Positions 25,394 through 61,263 of a stretch of 64,000 nt of DNA are shown piece after piece (positions within the stretch are counted from its first letter, which is position 1; each line of letters starts with the position of its first letter). The notes beneath the pieces were generated by a model, which was given only the letters and a program-made list of their open reading frames with translations, searched no databases and was not told the origin of the DNA. The translations under genes and the position numbers were made by a program. This stretch comes from Polychytrium aggregatum. Its lineage: Eukaryota; Chytridiomycota; Chytridiomycetes; Polychytriales. Where the stretch lies: positions 434,001 through 498,000 of the forward strand of contig NW_026516224.1 of NCBI RefSeq assembly GCF_025602895.1, in the 5' to 3' direction.

Positions 25394-26480
25394 AGTGTGG
25401 AAGCGAGAATCCGGGCAGATGGGGTGAGAGAGGGCACAGACCGGCGCAGGCAGCAACCGTGCCCCACCCCGATCAACATCAGGATGGATCTGGACAGATC
25501 TGACTGGCGACTCGCAGTCTTCATCCGGAGATTGCCAAAGTGGTCAGCCCAGGCACTTGGAGCATACTTGCGAGGTGTTGAACTCGTTCGTCGAGACTAT
25601 TTTGCGTTGGCTATGAATGATGGTATTGCACCGCATCACAGAATGGTCATGACCAGCCCGCGATAACATTGGGTAACAAACCATTCGGACAATGACCAAA
25701 GTGTTCAAGGGCTCATCACGCCTTCGGCCGCAATCGCAGCTCGCCCTGGCCACATCGTTCCCACAGTCAGATTGCCACCTCCTCCGCCATCGAGTGTTGT
25801 TTTGCCTTTGCATCGCTGATTGGCACTGTATCGACAGTTGAATCAACCGGTGTGCTCAACGCCCGCTTCTCTGACTATCGAGTTGACATCACTTTTCTTG
25901 CTGCATCATCCCTTTGCTTAGCGGTAGTGCGTCCCCACCAACTCAAACAGCATACTCGAGGGTCCTCTCCAATCGCCACACAAACGCATGCAGCTTTGTC
26001 AGGCATTAGGTTTGCGTCGTCTCGGATCGCACAGTATCCCCCCCCCTCGCAGGCATCCTGCGTCCTCTCGAGGGCATATCGCTTCGATTTGGAAACGTCT
26101 GCTCAGAAATGTTTGGTGCTGGAGGGCAGCACATCCACCGAACCGTTTCCTTCCTCCGAACAGCAATCAGCCAAACTCTCAGAGTCCTCAGCGAGGGCAA
26201 GCGGCTGATAAGCCCCCAAGAGCAGATACACCCTCGGCAACGACGGTCGCCTCCCACTTCATCTCCCATCCGTCTCAGGCTGGCTGGCACCGACATTTAC
26301 GATTTGCAGACGACTCTGTCGATATACATCCTGCTTCAGCGGCACCAAGCCAAACCTGGAAACCCATCGCCAGCGCTCTGACCATCGCAGCAGCAGCCAC
26401 ATTCGCATCCGCGCTGACCGAACCAGCCTGCTGTCCAGCTCGATTCAGAATCACTTACTTCCTTGTCAAGAACTCAGTAC
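25394..26480. other. Divergent intergenic region holding a transposon fragment
   Basis: 1.09 kb between BBS5 (-) and PA-TM-RING copy 2 (+). The stretch 25517-25700 is a scrambled Fanzor-element fragment, listed separately. The remainder shows no gene. Confidence 0.6.
25517..25700. mobile_element. Rearranged remnant of the Fanzor transposon
   Basis: Three pieces match the 57-61 kb element. (a) 25517-25540, read on the + strand, resembles the Fanzor C-terminal codons (VFIRRLPK here, VFTRRLPK there, where the gene is on the minus strand). (b) 25550-25595 matches 57744-57789 at 45 of 46 bases and encodes, on the minus strand, NEFNTSQVCSKC, the RuvC-II and zinc-ribbon start. (c) 25641-25680 matches the transposase-side subterminal sequence 60744-60783 at 38 of 40 bases, with weaker similarity to about 25700. 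Piece (a) is inverted relative to (b), and almost all of the element between (b) and (c) is gone. No outer inverted repeat is visible. Confidence 0.85.
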
Positions 26481-56658: not shown

Positions 56659-57440
56659 TCTCTTTCCCGCCCCCCCCCAGCGGTGCGCTCGCTGCGTTTC
56701 CTCTCTGGGAAGCCCACGCAGAGCCGCTGTCATGGGCTTTCTTGAAGGCTGTGTGGCTCGCTCCCCTCCCACCCAGCCGTCTGTTGTTCCTTCCGCCTCT
56801 GACCTTATCCGCACCGAGTGCGAACCCTTTGCGCACCCTCTCCACACCCTGGCATCGTCAACTCCCCTCCCCTCACTACCGTCGACTAGAACCACAAAAG
56901 CGATTGTACATAACCTTTTTTTTTGGAAAGGGGGGACGGTCTTGTTTCTCCAGTCTGGCCTTTTTTTTTTCTTCCTTCCATTCATCGCTCCTTTGAATCG
57001 CTTGGCTCCTGCTTTCTGTTATTTGTTTCCCATTCTCGTCATAGCTACTATTACTACAATTACAATTACTACACTACGTTTGTTTTCATCCATTTGACTG
57101 CTCTGGATATCTCTCTCTCTCTTTCTTTCTCTCTCCCACTCGATATTCATCTCGATTCTGCTGGATCATGTTATCTCGCGCTCTTTCGGCTGAAGACGGT
57201 TCTGTCCGCTCGCCGCTGCCTATTCGTTTCTTCTTGTGCCTCGCCCCCTCCTTGCACTTGCAGATGTCCTTTCTTCATCCATTTTGCTGCACTCTGTGCT
57301 ACTGCGCCTCGGCTACCCCCATCCCGCCCCTACATCCTATCCCATCCTTGGATCTTGGTTTCGCCTGTCGCTCGAGTCCTTCCTTCCGTTTCGCAGATCA
57401 ACGTTTGCTGATCTCTTCGCTCTCCCTCTCTCTCTTCCAC
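56659..57440. other. 3' flank of the MEI2-like gene up to the transposon
   Basis: 782 bp, C/T-rich, with T-runs at 56919-56927 and 56961-56970 and TACTATTACTACAATTAC-type repeats near 57047-57076. Probably the MEI2-like 3' UTR and flank. No gene recognised. Confidence 0.5.
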
Positions 57441-57450
57441 ACCGCAGTAC
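57441..57450. repeat. Left direct repeat (putative target-site duplication)
   Basis: CACCGCAGTA, identical to 60832-60841 and in the same orientation. Confidence 0.75.
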
Positions 57451-57600
57451 ACTTTATTCAGAAAAAAACGGGACAATATAGCCGTTTCCATGAACATGTA
57501 GTATGTGCTGTGCTTGCGTCTAGCAAAGCCACAAGAAATAAAAACAGATCACTTTGGCAGCCTCCGAGTGAAGACCACCGGTCGCTCTCCGATCTCCACA
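57451..57600 (-). ncRNA. Candidate Fanzor guide-RNA (fRNA/omegaRNA) region
   Basis: In TnpB and Fanzor loci the guide RNA overlaps the 3' end of the nuclease gene and runs out to the transposon end, with the guide segment taken from the flank. Here that places it on the minus strand from the last Fanzor codons (57.6 kb) to the left end, with the guide from bases below 57451. No structure was computed; placement is by analogy only. Confidence 0.25.
57464..57476. repeat. Left terminal inverted repeat core
   Basis: AAAAAACGGGACA, the exact inverse of 60812-60824. Confidence 0.8.
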
Positions 57601-59916
57601 ATCGACCTGCATACTGTGATCATGTTGCGCGCCGCATTGACGTCGCGATTCCACACTGTCCGGCAGCTGGGATTCTTGCAGCTCCTGACAAAGTGGGAAT
57701 TCGCAACACTGGGCGCATCGAGTCCTTCCAACCGAACTGGCTCCAGGCACTTGGAGCACACTTGCGAGGTGTTGAACTCGTTCGTCGAGGCCACCTTGGC
57801 GCTTCCATGATGGTGATTGGGACGGCGTCGGTGGTGCTCGAATTGCTCAAAGTACCGAGCAAACCGCTGCCTCCGAGGGCTGGATGCATAGCCCTTGCCT
57901 TGACGCCATGACTGCATTGCCAAAGGCGATCACCACATCGGTCCGTATCGGGACGTGCTTCAGGACGGCCTTGCACATCCTGTCGACGGCCACTTGGTGC
58001 CTCTTGTGGCCTGTGAATCGATGGTGACGAGCCTTCTTGCCAAGGTGGAAGTCGAGCTGCACTCGCAGCTCCGGTCGCAGGACATGGGTGAGATGGACCT
58101 TGAAAGCCTCCGAGGACGACACCTTGGGCGAGGGGGTGGTCGACATCCAGGTCTCGATGCTGAGTCGATACTTCATGGTGTTGTGCCACTCAGTATTGGA
58201 CGTATGGCCACACATGTGCTGGTAGTGGCCATTGGAGAATGAGACCACCTCGTCTTGGTGGCCCGGTGCTTGGATGACCGCAGTGAAGATGGAGCCGACT
58301 CCAGGATCGATGCCAATCCAAATGGTGCGACCTGGGGTCTGGGTCGCCGATGTGGGCCTGGATGCGCTGCTCGGCAGTCGGAGGAGGCTCGATGGTCTCG
58401 GTGCGATCGGTTCGACGCACAAACTTGACGAGACCGATGGTGCATCCAATGCCATCGGTGCTGATCTCGTAGTTGAACAGCTTCTTGTCCCTGACCCGCT
58501 CTTGGAAGAGGGAGCTACGCAGCTTGAAGCAACTGCGCCAGAGACGATCCTGGTTGTTGACACCGTCCTCACCTTCTTCCTTGAGCTTGTCCCTGGTGAG
58601 TCCAAGGCGCTTCTTTGGACCCAGGAGTTGCCAAAGAGTGACCGTGTCAATCTTGACATACTTGGCCTTGGCTGTGCATAGAGGAACTATCGTGCACACG
58701 GCGGAGGAGTGTCCAGAGCGAGCTGCTTGAGGGCCCACTTGAGTCTGGATGCCAGCTTGTTGATCTTGGCCTTGGTGGTGCCGAGCTCAGACTTGGCCGT
58801 GGTGAACCTCTTGTCGTCGGAGGGAATGCCTCTGGCAGTGAGCTTGTCCAGCTTGGCCTGGCGCTGCAACTCGGTGACTCGGAGGGCGGGCATGTCACAG
58901 TCGATCCACTTGTGGACATTGTCGACCATCTTGTCCCGGGCGAGGATTCCCACATGGTGTGAGAGGCGATGGAGGGCCCGGAAGCGGTCCTGGTCGTTGC
59001 TGTACCGAAACTCGTCCAGGACGTGGCCAAAGTCCGGGTAGAGGAACTCGAGATCGGCCTTGGGTGGAGTCTGCCCTGGTTTCTCGAAGAGCTCGAGACA
59101 AGCCTCGATGGCGTCGTGCTTGTGCTTGTTGGCAGGGAAGACGGCAGCACAGAAGCGGCGAAGGAGTCGCCAGTATGCCAGGTCGAGGTGGGTGGTGCAG
59201 TTGGTGGCATAGGCATTGACAGCCAGTGTGAGAAGCTGACTGTGAGCACCATCAGGCAGACAAGGGGCCGGAGGCAGGTCTGCGTGCCGAGTGGTCTGGT
59301 AGTCGCGAAAGGAAGCGACCAGATGCTCGTTGTATTTCTCATTGTCCCCGGTCGGGGAGAGGGCACCGTCCTGGACGATCTTGAAGCATTGGCGAACGAA
59401 AGCAGGGGTGGACTTGGAGATGACGGGGACGGGAAGATCCTGCTCGATGCACCGGAGGATGTGCAGGTTGAGCAGCCTGGATGCCTCGAACTGGATCTGG
59501 GTCATGGCCTCGACGGTGGCCTGGATCTTGTCGCGGAGAGCGGGATTGAGACAACAGCCATCCATCGTCTGCTTGAAGCAGCTGAACTGAGGGGCGGATG
59601 ACCTTCCATCCACGAGAGGGACGACGGAGCTCTTGAGGGGCCGGTATTTGGGACACTTGTTGGTGTTGCAACGTTCGTGATCGGTGCCATCGCACTGGCG
59701 ACATCGCTTGACAGGACCAGATGAGGGACCAGGCTCGGTGGGATCGACATCCATTGGATCTGCAGAAGCAGTGGTGGTGAGCGACGGAGCAACAGACGAA
59801 CAAGCATGCGTGGGGTCAGAATACGAACCAGAGACAGGCTCCGACTGTGACTTGGCTTTCTTGGGCCTGGGTGGCCGAGGCTGGCCATCACCGGTACCCT
59901 TACGCTTCGGAGGCAT
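57549..59916 (-). pseudogene. Fanzor (eukaryotic TnpB-like RNA-guided DNA endonuclease), frame-disrupted
   Basis: About 780 codons in four overlapping frames. The N-terminal part (59916..58687) starts MPPKRKGTGDGQPRP with a basic nuclear-localisation-like stretch (RPPRPKKAK) and a zinc-knuckle-like CRQCDGTDHERCNTNKC, followed by a helical region. The next frame carries KYVKIDTVTLWQLLGPKKR and KLFNYEISTDGIGCTIGLV. The third carries RuvC-I (IWIGIDPGVGSIFTAV) and HRFTGHKRHQVAVDRM. The last carries NEFNTSQVCSKC, CKNPSCRTVWNRD and VNAARNM, which hold the relocated RuvC-II Glu, a four-Cys zinc ribbon and the RuvC-III Asp. All catalytic positions are therefore still encoded. Frame changes lie near 58690-58735 (a very short GT-AG intron is also possible), near 58335-58350 (one base short) and near 57900 (one base extra). 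Size fits Fanzor1. Confidence 0.88.
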
Positions 59917-60159
59917 GGGGGCAGAGGATGCTGGATGCCTGCCAGTGGTACTGGTCAGAGCAGAGACTTTTTTTTATCGTACAATAGCGCGATGATCAGA
60001 TCAAGGCGAGATGAGGGAAGAAAGCAGCAGGACGAAGGTGTGGCATTTATACCCGAGAGCAGGAGCCCGTCGTTGCGGGCTGGTTGGGGAAGTGACCCTG
60101 TTCAAAAATCGCCGAGAGGTTCAAGACAGGGATTTGAGCGTGAAAATGGCGGCTTGATT

Positions 60160-60223
60160 GGAGGGAACTCAACCCCAAATTGGAGGAACTCAACCCCAAA
60201 TCGGTGGGGACTCAACCCCAAAG
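60160..60223. repeat. Tandem repeat (unit core ACTCAACCCCAAA, 3 copies)
   Basis: Copies at 60166-60180, 60187-60201 and 60209-60223, spaced by 6-7 bp. On the minus strand the unit continues directly from the transposase codons for the FFGVES segment, so it may derive from the transposase end. Confidence 0.9.
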
Positions 60224-60753
60224 AAGTTCTCGATGGGATTGAAGTCGGGCGAGGCAGGTGGGGTGAAGATCACTGACCATCCTCGGCGCTCGATGCAGTC
60301 CAGGACAGGCATTGTCTTGTGCATGCTGACATTGTCCATCACAATCACAGAGTCGTCTGGGAAGGTCGCTCGCTCAAAGAACTCGACCATCGAGTGTGTC
60401 TTGAATGATGTGGGGATGTACATGCGATGCAGCACACCAGAGTGGTTGATGGCAAATGCAGCCGAGACAGACTTGTGTTTCATGTGATTGCGCTGGCGAA
60501 GCGGAGCACCCTTCGGTGAGTATCCGTAAAGAGGGAAAATGGATTTCCTGATCCCCGTCTCATCGACAAAAACGAATCGCCGCGGGTCGATGGAGCGGAC
60601 CTGGTCCCTGAACTGTGCCACTCGCTCATCCAGTCGCTTGGACTTGTAGAGGTGTGTTGCCCTCTTGTGTGAGAGACCTGCTCGGTGGATGGCAGTGTGG
60701 CAGAGTGAGAGTGAAACTTTCCTCTGGAGAGTGGTTGTGTGGCGAATGGTCAT
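60190..60753 (-). pseudogene. Tc1/mariner-IS630 type DDE transposase, truncated at both ends
   Basis: 187 codons of a DDE_3-type transposase: helix-turn-helix remnant (LCHTAIHRAGLSHKRATHLY), FRDQVRSIDPRRFVFVDETGI with the first catalytic Asp, GYSPKGAPLRQRNHMKHKSV, SVIVMDNVSMHK with the second Asp, and PDFNPIENFFG with the third acidic residue. These are the hallmark blocks of the IS630/Tc1/mariner superfamily. The usual N-terminal DNA-binding domain (about 100 residues more) is missing because the frame starts only 59 bp from the inverted repeat. The C-terminus runs into a tandem repeat and stops. Probably inactive, so mobility would need another copy. Confidence 0.88.
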
Positions 60754-60811
60754 GGCCAGCGCGCGATAACATTGGGTAACAAAATATTCGATGAATGGTC
60801 AAAATCCCGGG

Positions 60812-60824
60812 TGTCCCGTTTTTT
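60812..60824. repeat. Right terminal inverted repeat core
   Basis: TGTCCCGTTTTTT, the exact inverse of 57464-57476. Confidence 0.8.
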
Positions 60825-60831
60825 ATTGGAT

Positions 60832-60841
60832 CACCGCAGTA
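60832..60841. repeat. Right direct repeat (putative target-site duplication)
   Basis: CACCGCAGTA, identical to 57441-57450. Confidence 0.75.
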
Positions 60842-61263
60842 AAATCTTGCTTCATCTCCTTTCTCCCATTCGTGTACTTCTCGCCCCATCCCCCCTCTCT
60901 CCGTGCCATGATATGCGCTCTTTGTTTCCGCTCTTGCTCTGCTCGCTTTGACCTGTCTTGTCGTTGCTCGACTTTTTGTTCAACAGCGTACCCGTTTTGA
61001 GCCAGGGCCGTCGCTTTCTCTGGGTCCCGAATGCTGCCTCGCTCTGGATCTTGAATACACACCCACCGATGATCATGTTCAGTGTTTGCCATGCCACTCC
61101 AACCCAGCCGCCCCCATGTCCGTTTCGGCCGCTTGGCCCTCTGGCGCCGGACCCTGTCTTGTCCTTGTCTGCTCAAACCCGCGAAAGGCCTCGCCTTTGC
61201 CAGTGTCATTCATCTATCGCTGCATCTCGCTCCCAGTCGACGACCACGTATCCCTCTCCAGCC
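60842..61263. other. 5' flank of the PTPA gene
   Basis: 422 bp between the transposon and the PTPA start, C/T-rich on the + strand. Presumably the PTPA promoter and 5' UTR; the insertion sits about 0.4 kb upstream of the start codon. Confidence 0.55.

Follow-up and report, generated by a model that had tools for sequence, protein, structure and literature searches.

Described Fanzor elements and the Polychytrium window

Fanzor1 genes have been known within mariner elements since 2013 (PMC3627910), and the available text of a later study states that the natural role of Fanzors is unknown (PMC10432273). The present analysis deals with a stretch of 64,000 nt from the chytrid Polychytrium aggregatum (order Polychytriales; assembly GCF_025602895.1, contig NW_026516224.1, positions 434,001 to 498,000; part of contig C135 in our numbering), hereafter called the window. 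Judged from its sequence, this window carries a Tc1/mariner transposon of this fungus with a Fanzor1 gene, in a copy that is no longer active. We consider it probable that the element is what it appears to be and that TTA serves as the likely target-adjacent motif (TAM), read in the sense of the Fanzor gene. None of the papers among the best 30 of 87 matches listed concerns both Polychytrium aggregatum and Fanzor.

Three groups of described elements are useful for comparison, as far as the available portions of their descriptions go. Spu-1 from Spizellomyces punctatus, which encodes SpuFz1 (PDB 8gkh), also combines a chytrid Fanzor1 with terminal inverted repeats (TIRs) and TA; its flanking bases are conserved only before the 5' end, and short ghost elements retain the guide-RNA region (PMC3627910, PMC10432273). 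The conserved CA before its 5' repeat forms, together with TA, the measured TAM CATA, and omega-RNA ghost loci are present (PMC10432273). Spu-1 is described with no transposase between its repeats and with CATA as TAM, whereas a DD34E transposase lies within the Polychytrium element and TTA is the predicted motif; the similarity of the two Fanzor proteins is visible by profile only.

PGv-1, PUl-1 and their kin (Bao and Jurka 2013) carry a transposase followed by Fanzor1 between TIRs and TA, and have relatives with common TIRs and transposase but a different 3' portion (PMC3627910). These elements are described as mostly single copies with about 78% identity, whereas those found here are numerous and have swapped the Fanzor half on a transposase half whose DNA is 97.5% identical. 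CRe-1, CRe-2 and CRe-3 from Chlamydomonas reinhardtii occur as 5'-shortened copies in which a T-rich motif is immediately followed by a direct repeat (PMC3627910). Similarly, 6 bases are missing from the 5' end of the window copy, and TTTTA is followed directly by an 8-bp repeat. The Chlamydomonas elements are Helitron-related, and their 5'-truncated copies have repeats of about 7–19 bp directly after TTTT in many cases (PMC3627910), whereas such a repeat is clear in only one case here.

Organization of the window element

The element and its parts are as follows.
57450–60839, no strand: whole element, 3390 bp, with TA at 57448–57449 and at 60840–60841.
57450–57475, no strand: left TIR, the 3' end in gene sense, on the guide side.
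60812–60839, no strand: right TIR, the 5' end in gene sense, on the transposase side, with aberrant last 8 bases.
60832–60839, no strand: 8 bases CACCGCAG, identical to 57440–57447; other copies have YGCCTG here.
57549–59916, minus strand: Fanzor1 pseudogene with three frame changes and homology across all 790 residues of the Fanzor P0001.
60193–60753, minus strand: remnant of a DDE_3 (DD34E) transposase, with its N-terminal block deleted and its C terminus replaced.
57448–57551, minus strand: candidate omega-RNA scaffold, which would begin at the Fanzor stop codon, cross the left TIR and end at TA, proposed from end pairing and folding and by comparison with SpuFz1.
57432–57447, minus strand: predicted guide of this copy, located in the host flank, 5'-CTGCGGTGTGGAAGAG-3' on the minus strand, by analogy with SpuFz1.
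60840–60844, minus strand: predicted TAM side, TTTTA just ahead of the element, from flank counts and the proposed role of the flank.

A first-pass annotation of this DNA had reported a Fanzor RNA-guided nuclease inside a mariner-type transposon, with a transposase remnant beside it, bounded by inverted and direct repeats and with both ends visible. An inverted repeat is present (57456–57475 / 60812–60831), as is an exact 10-bp direct repeat, CACCGCAGTA, but the duplicated target is TA and not these 10 bp (see below); both ends were found, their limits being corrected to 57450–60839. The motifs that had been quoted are all found in minus-strand translations: GIDPGVG at about 58330–58310, and NEFNTSQVCSKC, CKNPSC and NRDVNAARNM in the frame 57549–57929. 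Pfam profiles run on the open frames of the window give PF07282 (Cas12f1-like_TNB) at 3e-10 and PF13358 (DDE_3) at 3.9e-21, both above cut-off.

Residues 1–407, 408–530, 509–682 and 671–790 of P0001 map to the window between 59916 and 57552, with the frame changing from piece to piece; the window Fanzor is therefore a pseudogene. Thus, the gene is a Fanzor1 gene as had been proposed, but this copy, with its three frame changes, cannot encode a whole nuclease. The transposase lacks the N-terminal block seen at locus L069 as well as the usual C terminus, and continues into a 22-nt repeat array at 60157–60222. In this array a 22-nt unit, whose core is ACTCAACCCCAAA, occurs three times where the transposase C terminus would be expected. 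The transposase of L069 shares the odd tail GVESPPIWG, and that of L070 has a longer C terminus.

Elsewhere in the window, in a decayed remnant on the minus strand at 25550–25700, sequence resembling a right end is joined to a short piece of a Fanzor (22 residues, 77% identical, E=1.9e-5). This remnant probably derives from the same element by an old deletion.

A Fanzor1 nuclease and a Tc1/mariner transposase

An intact 790-aa Fanzor, P0001, is encoded by a copy on contig C26. It has DPG at 539, the relocated RuvC-II Glu at 715, six residues before C722, zinc ribbon Cys at 722, 725, 748 and 753, and the RuvC-III sequence NRDVNAARN with NRD at 758; PF07282 is above cut-off. The window frame carries the same relocated-Glu/Cys motif. 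The combination of DPG and relocated Glu is described as a molecular fingerprint of Fanzors in the available part of PMC10711439. A homolog search with full-length P0001 found none at 1e-3 among 8000 scored, and four proteins were found when its C-terminal part was the query. A profile that combines P0001 with two homologs, P0004 and P0005 (31–32% identity), matches SpuFz1 (8gkh) with E=2.2e-8 over about 350 positions, spanning RuvC-I, the relocated Glu, the zinc ribbon and RuvC-III. The same profile matches GtFz1 (9cer) at E=0.25, and its best non-Fanzor1 entry is the TnpB-like L79 (1.9e-6, about 125 positions). As argued from sequence, these data support the assignment of the element's nuclease to Fanzor1.

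The transposase frame at L069 matches PF13358 (4.8e-21) and, below cut-off, HTH_23 (0.0017), and its translation shows D-34-E spacing when counted by eye. In family 1, one of three families of ends distinguished here (1, 2 and C), all 44 distinct left flanks end in TA, preceded by G in 13, C in 12, T in 11 and A in 8. All 41 right flanks of this family read TAA under a search pattern that demanded TA, as do 26 of 26 distinct right flanks under a pattern that did not. L004, L130, L110–L127 and L133–L180 had been excluded beforehand from the sets of 44 and 41. The duplicated target is TA. The DDE_3 domain, the D-34-E spacing, the TIRs and TA all bear out the mariner-type identity proposed by the first-pass annotation. 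Some copies (L074, L088/L089, L025/L028) lie exactly at a TA that borders the end of another element with the same TIR type, so that elements are stacked end to end.

Abundance and state of the family

Whole-genome scans covered 64.7 Mb on 418 contigs, and the counts that follow include some rows that represent one site on two contigs. At least 150 matches to PF07282 are present, all above cut-off among the best 150 of 663 candidates scored. Pattern counts give 437 right ends (up to 2 mismatches), 239 family-1 left ends and 279 family-C left ends (up to 3 mismatches each); these patterns differ in stringency, and the three numbers are therefore not mutually comparable. Reversed control patterns gave 0 matches versus hundreds of real ends. 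Copies are 93–100% identical in two lists of best matches, with 40 scored in each. Left and right ends paired by coordinates delimit elements of about 3.74 kb, plus shorter classes. In one paired element, C44:66789–70530, the Fanzor frame is open over 851 aa and the DDE_3 frame over 325 aa, both measured from stop to stop, and the genome holds many Fanzor frames of at least 800 aa as well as transposase frames of 325 aa. The copy search proposed earlier yielded abundant relatives, with intact Fanzor frames elsewhere in the genome. Five short derivatives that were read (282–382 bp, some of 311 bp) keep both ends, the guide end over about 200 nt and the opposite end over about 100 nt.

Ratios of nonsynonymous to synonymous differences (pN/pS) are 0.30 and 0.34 for two parts of the Fanzor gene and 0.23 for the transposase gene, in samples of 28 loci each; the single reference is itself a copy, the samples consist of best matches, and a place present on two contigs enters twice. 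Neither frameshift nor stop is found in 18/28 and 18/28 loci for the Fanzor parts and in 26/28 for the transposase; the N-terminal block of the latter is missing from the alignment in 14/28. From these ratios, both genes appear to have been constrained while the family spread.

Fanzor stretches also occur in two database proteins of Polychytrium aggregatum, P0002 (male-sterility/AMP-binding) and P0003 (F-box), which may reflect errors of gene prediction or else insertions within or next to host genes. A frame of another type lies at L002:1486–2916 on the minus strand, where 477 aa of TnpB/Fanzor2 type match PF07282 (2.4e-18) and OrfB_IS605 (1.5e-8). Its N terminus resembles a MerR-type helix-turn-helix (0.0059, below cut-off) and, by eye, the first part of a serine recombinase, as though tnpB had been fused to an IS607-type tnpA. 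Frames of 477 aa are found at at least four places among the matches listed, which form two inverted pairs with a spacing of about 5 kb.

A one-sided A and the predicted TAM

Among 237 perfect right ends of the form GGATNNNCTG in the whole genome, 218 are followed by TAA and 19 by TA and another base; in the window, 13.6% of TA are followed by A, both strands considered. On the guide side, the base adjoining TA has no comparable bias. At the junction of L004, the right flank continues TAAATCAGACG, and the Fanzor2-type loci L001, L002, L003, L005 and L006, uninterrupted at this place, have the A. An A belonging to the element end itself was rejected, as 19 of the 237 ends lack it and the uninterrupted paralogs have it. 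Since CA and TA before the 5' repeat of Spu-1 constitute the measured TAM CATA, TTA is the natural prediction here, and the one-sided A beside TA would be the footprint of a Fanzor motif. The first-pass annotation had held that guide and target could be predicted from the visible ends, and both are proposed here as predictions, with the guide at 57432–57447 and the TTA motif.

Family C allows a comparison in which the transposase half is nearly constant. Its Fanzor (copy on C402) is only 39% identical to that of family 1 and its guide end differs, whereas the transposase half (copy on C157) reaches 96% protein identity (276 aa) and 97.5% DNA identity (868 bases). The right-end class GGATTGGCTG has a family-C Fanzor at the expected place in 6 of the 7 copies tested, the copy on C88 having none. 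In this class A is found in 7/13 rows versus 211/224 other rows (Fisher p=1.4e-4, the rows not being independent), or in about 5 of 10 sites once same flanks are merged (C30 with C79 by spacing only). Three loci fetched as right ends of this family were dropped, L172 and L180 for having no TA and L173 because its coordinates assign it to family 1. The A frequencies would fit a motif that follows the Fanzor, on small numbers. At L180:1–181 (contig C96), a family-C right end without TA abuts a sequence that resembles the coding region of another family-C Fanzor.

Candidate guide RNA and proposed cycle

In families 1, 2 and C (one family-C end, L130, not included), base pairing is possible between the TIR and an upstream stretch, with the last bases and TA pairing further out. 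The paired letters, compared by eye, change jointly between families: AAACGG/CCGTTT, AAATGGG/CCCATTT and CCAGAAAG/CTTTCTGG. In the family-2 end, the minimum-energy fold differs from this TIR/upstream pairing. In the available part of PMC10711439, the TIR and the target site duplication lie within the scaffold of other Fanzor1 RNAs. The candidate scaffold of the window copy may extend into the 3' end of the Fanzor gene.

The cycle of the element may be pictured as follows. The transposase would excise the element and paste it at TA. The Fanzor would bind an omega-RNA derived from the 3' (left) end of the element, with the adjoining host DNA as guide. Given the TTA motif, it would cut the re-formed empty site, and repair on the sister chromatid would restore the element. 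Insertion of the element would separate the motif from its target, so that the element is proposed to protect itself. Taken alone, this role of the Fanzor in retention seems to us evenly balanced between true and false.

An unusual right end in the window copy

The copies of the window and of C318 end in GGATCACCGCAG and not in GGATYGCCTG. The 10-bp direct repeat CACCGCAGTA consists of TA and 8 bp, and its right-hand 8 bp replace the usual six terminal bases YGCCTG. In gene sense, the order in the window copy is TTTTA, 8 nt from the start of the predicted target, the element minus its first 6 nt, TA and the whole target. A matching run of 8 bp beyond TA is found at only 1 of 28 distinct sites read at both ends, that of the window; the next longest run is 3. 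At L125, 8 of 10 bases match at a comparable junction, possibly by chance.

Alternative explanations

Several observations weigh against the reading of the element as a Fanzor1 transposon with a TTA motif. P0001 alone matched no PDB chain. The A is missing at 19 of the 237 right ends (15 loci), and four of these loci carry a family-1 Fanzor stretch, including L162/L145, the counterpart of a TAA site: the flank of L145 is that of the TAA copy L057 save for the base next to TA. The idea that the exceptions are merely Fanzor-less elements was rejected, as 8 of the 15 loci have a Fanzor stretch (4 of family 1 and 4 of family C) and 7 have none; among TAA ends read in the same way, 3/5 have one and 2/5 have none. 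The left flank of the L004 element (L130) is unlike the uninterrupted paralogs, so that this place is rearranged and the pre-insertion case is one-sided. In family-2 derivatives, T precedes the 5' TA in only 8 of 12 readable flanks (3 A, 1 C); 18 loci had been fetched, of which 15 are distinct, and L110 (no TA), L113 (5' end not reached) and L127 (base not reached) were dropped. The four guide ends fold modestly better than shuffles (z-scores -1.95, -1.01, -2.70 and -2.43). No empty allele was found for 20 joined sites, 13 being occupied on a second contig and 7 found once (best 40 of 142 candidates scored in one run, 36 of 36 in the other), so most insertions are not fresh. Lastly, the TAA preference might be a motif of the transposase itself. 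As the two ends differ, an asymmetric integration complex would then produce the one-sided TAA, with the Fanzor as a passenger. Almost all family-1 copies have the A, even short Fanzor-less derivatives, and selection for retention only would lead one to expect more unselected recent insertions. However, family C has the transposase half in common and yet shows the A frequencies given above, and a one-sided flank preference is not known among Tc1/mariner transposases, although no search aimed at it was made. The same one-sided conservation is found in the SpuFz1 system, where it is the measured TAM according to the available text of PMC10432273. An origin from the transposase is a serious possibility, which we nevertheless hold to be somewhat improbable. 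That the whole family is extinct, the Fanzor having no present role and the window recording decay only, would agree with the broken window copy, the 10/28 loci with a frameshift or stop in the 3' part of the Fanzor gene, the transposase block absent from the alignment in half of the loci and the 13 of 20 sites occupied on a second contig with none empty. The many long frames of both genes, the pN/pS values of 0.23–0.34 and the high identity among copies argue against it, and we regard it as unlikely.

The right end of the window copy raises two further possibilities. A 10-bp target duplication as a rule of the family could be invoked since both the window copy and the C318 copy lie between exact repeats of CACCGCAGTA; it is refuted by the 27 other distinct sites read at both ends, none of which has a run longer than 3 beyond TA, and we give it practically no credence. 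More speculatively, the 8-bp repeat may be a repair scar. The window copy would then be a fossil of Fanzor homing, and the Chlamydomonas copies would have the same origin; across the genome, the one-sided TTA would mark RNA-guided retention that goes with the Fanzor cassette rather than with the transposase. Under such homing, the Fanzor would cut the empty site 16–21 nt beyond the motif, as reported for SpuFz1; copying of the element would start from the guide side, and its incomplete product would be joined to the trimmed end on the motif side. We regard this combined proposal as quite improbable, and an origin of the odd right end by ordinary templated end joining is equally open. At L055, where about 60 bp are missing at the 5' end, no repeat of the guide-side flank is found at the 5' junction, which speaks against a scar.

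Significance

Overall, the earlier observation is confirmed and its interpretation supported. The presence of Fanzor1 in mariner elements is known since 2013, as described in the available text of PMC3627910; what is new is a very abundant member of this group with a testable footprint. The genome of Polychytrium aggregatum holds hundreds of ends, single elements with both frames open and two unlike Fanzor cassettes on a near-identical transposase half. Therefore, whether insertion flanks follow the motif of the Fanzor and whether the Fanzor acts in retention are directly testable questions in this genome. Its Fanzors are also new nuclease candidates, and the TAM predicted for them is short.

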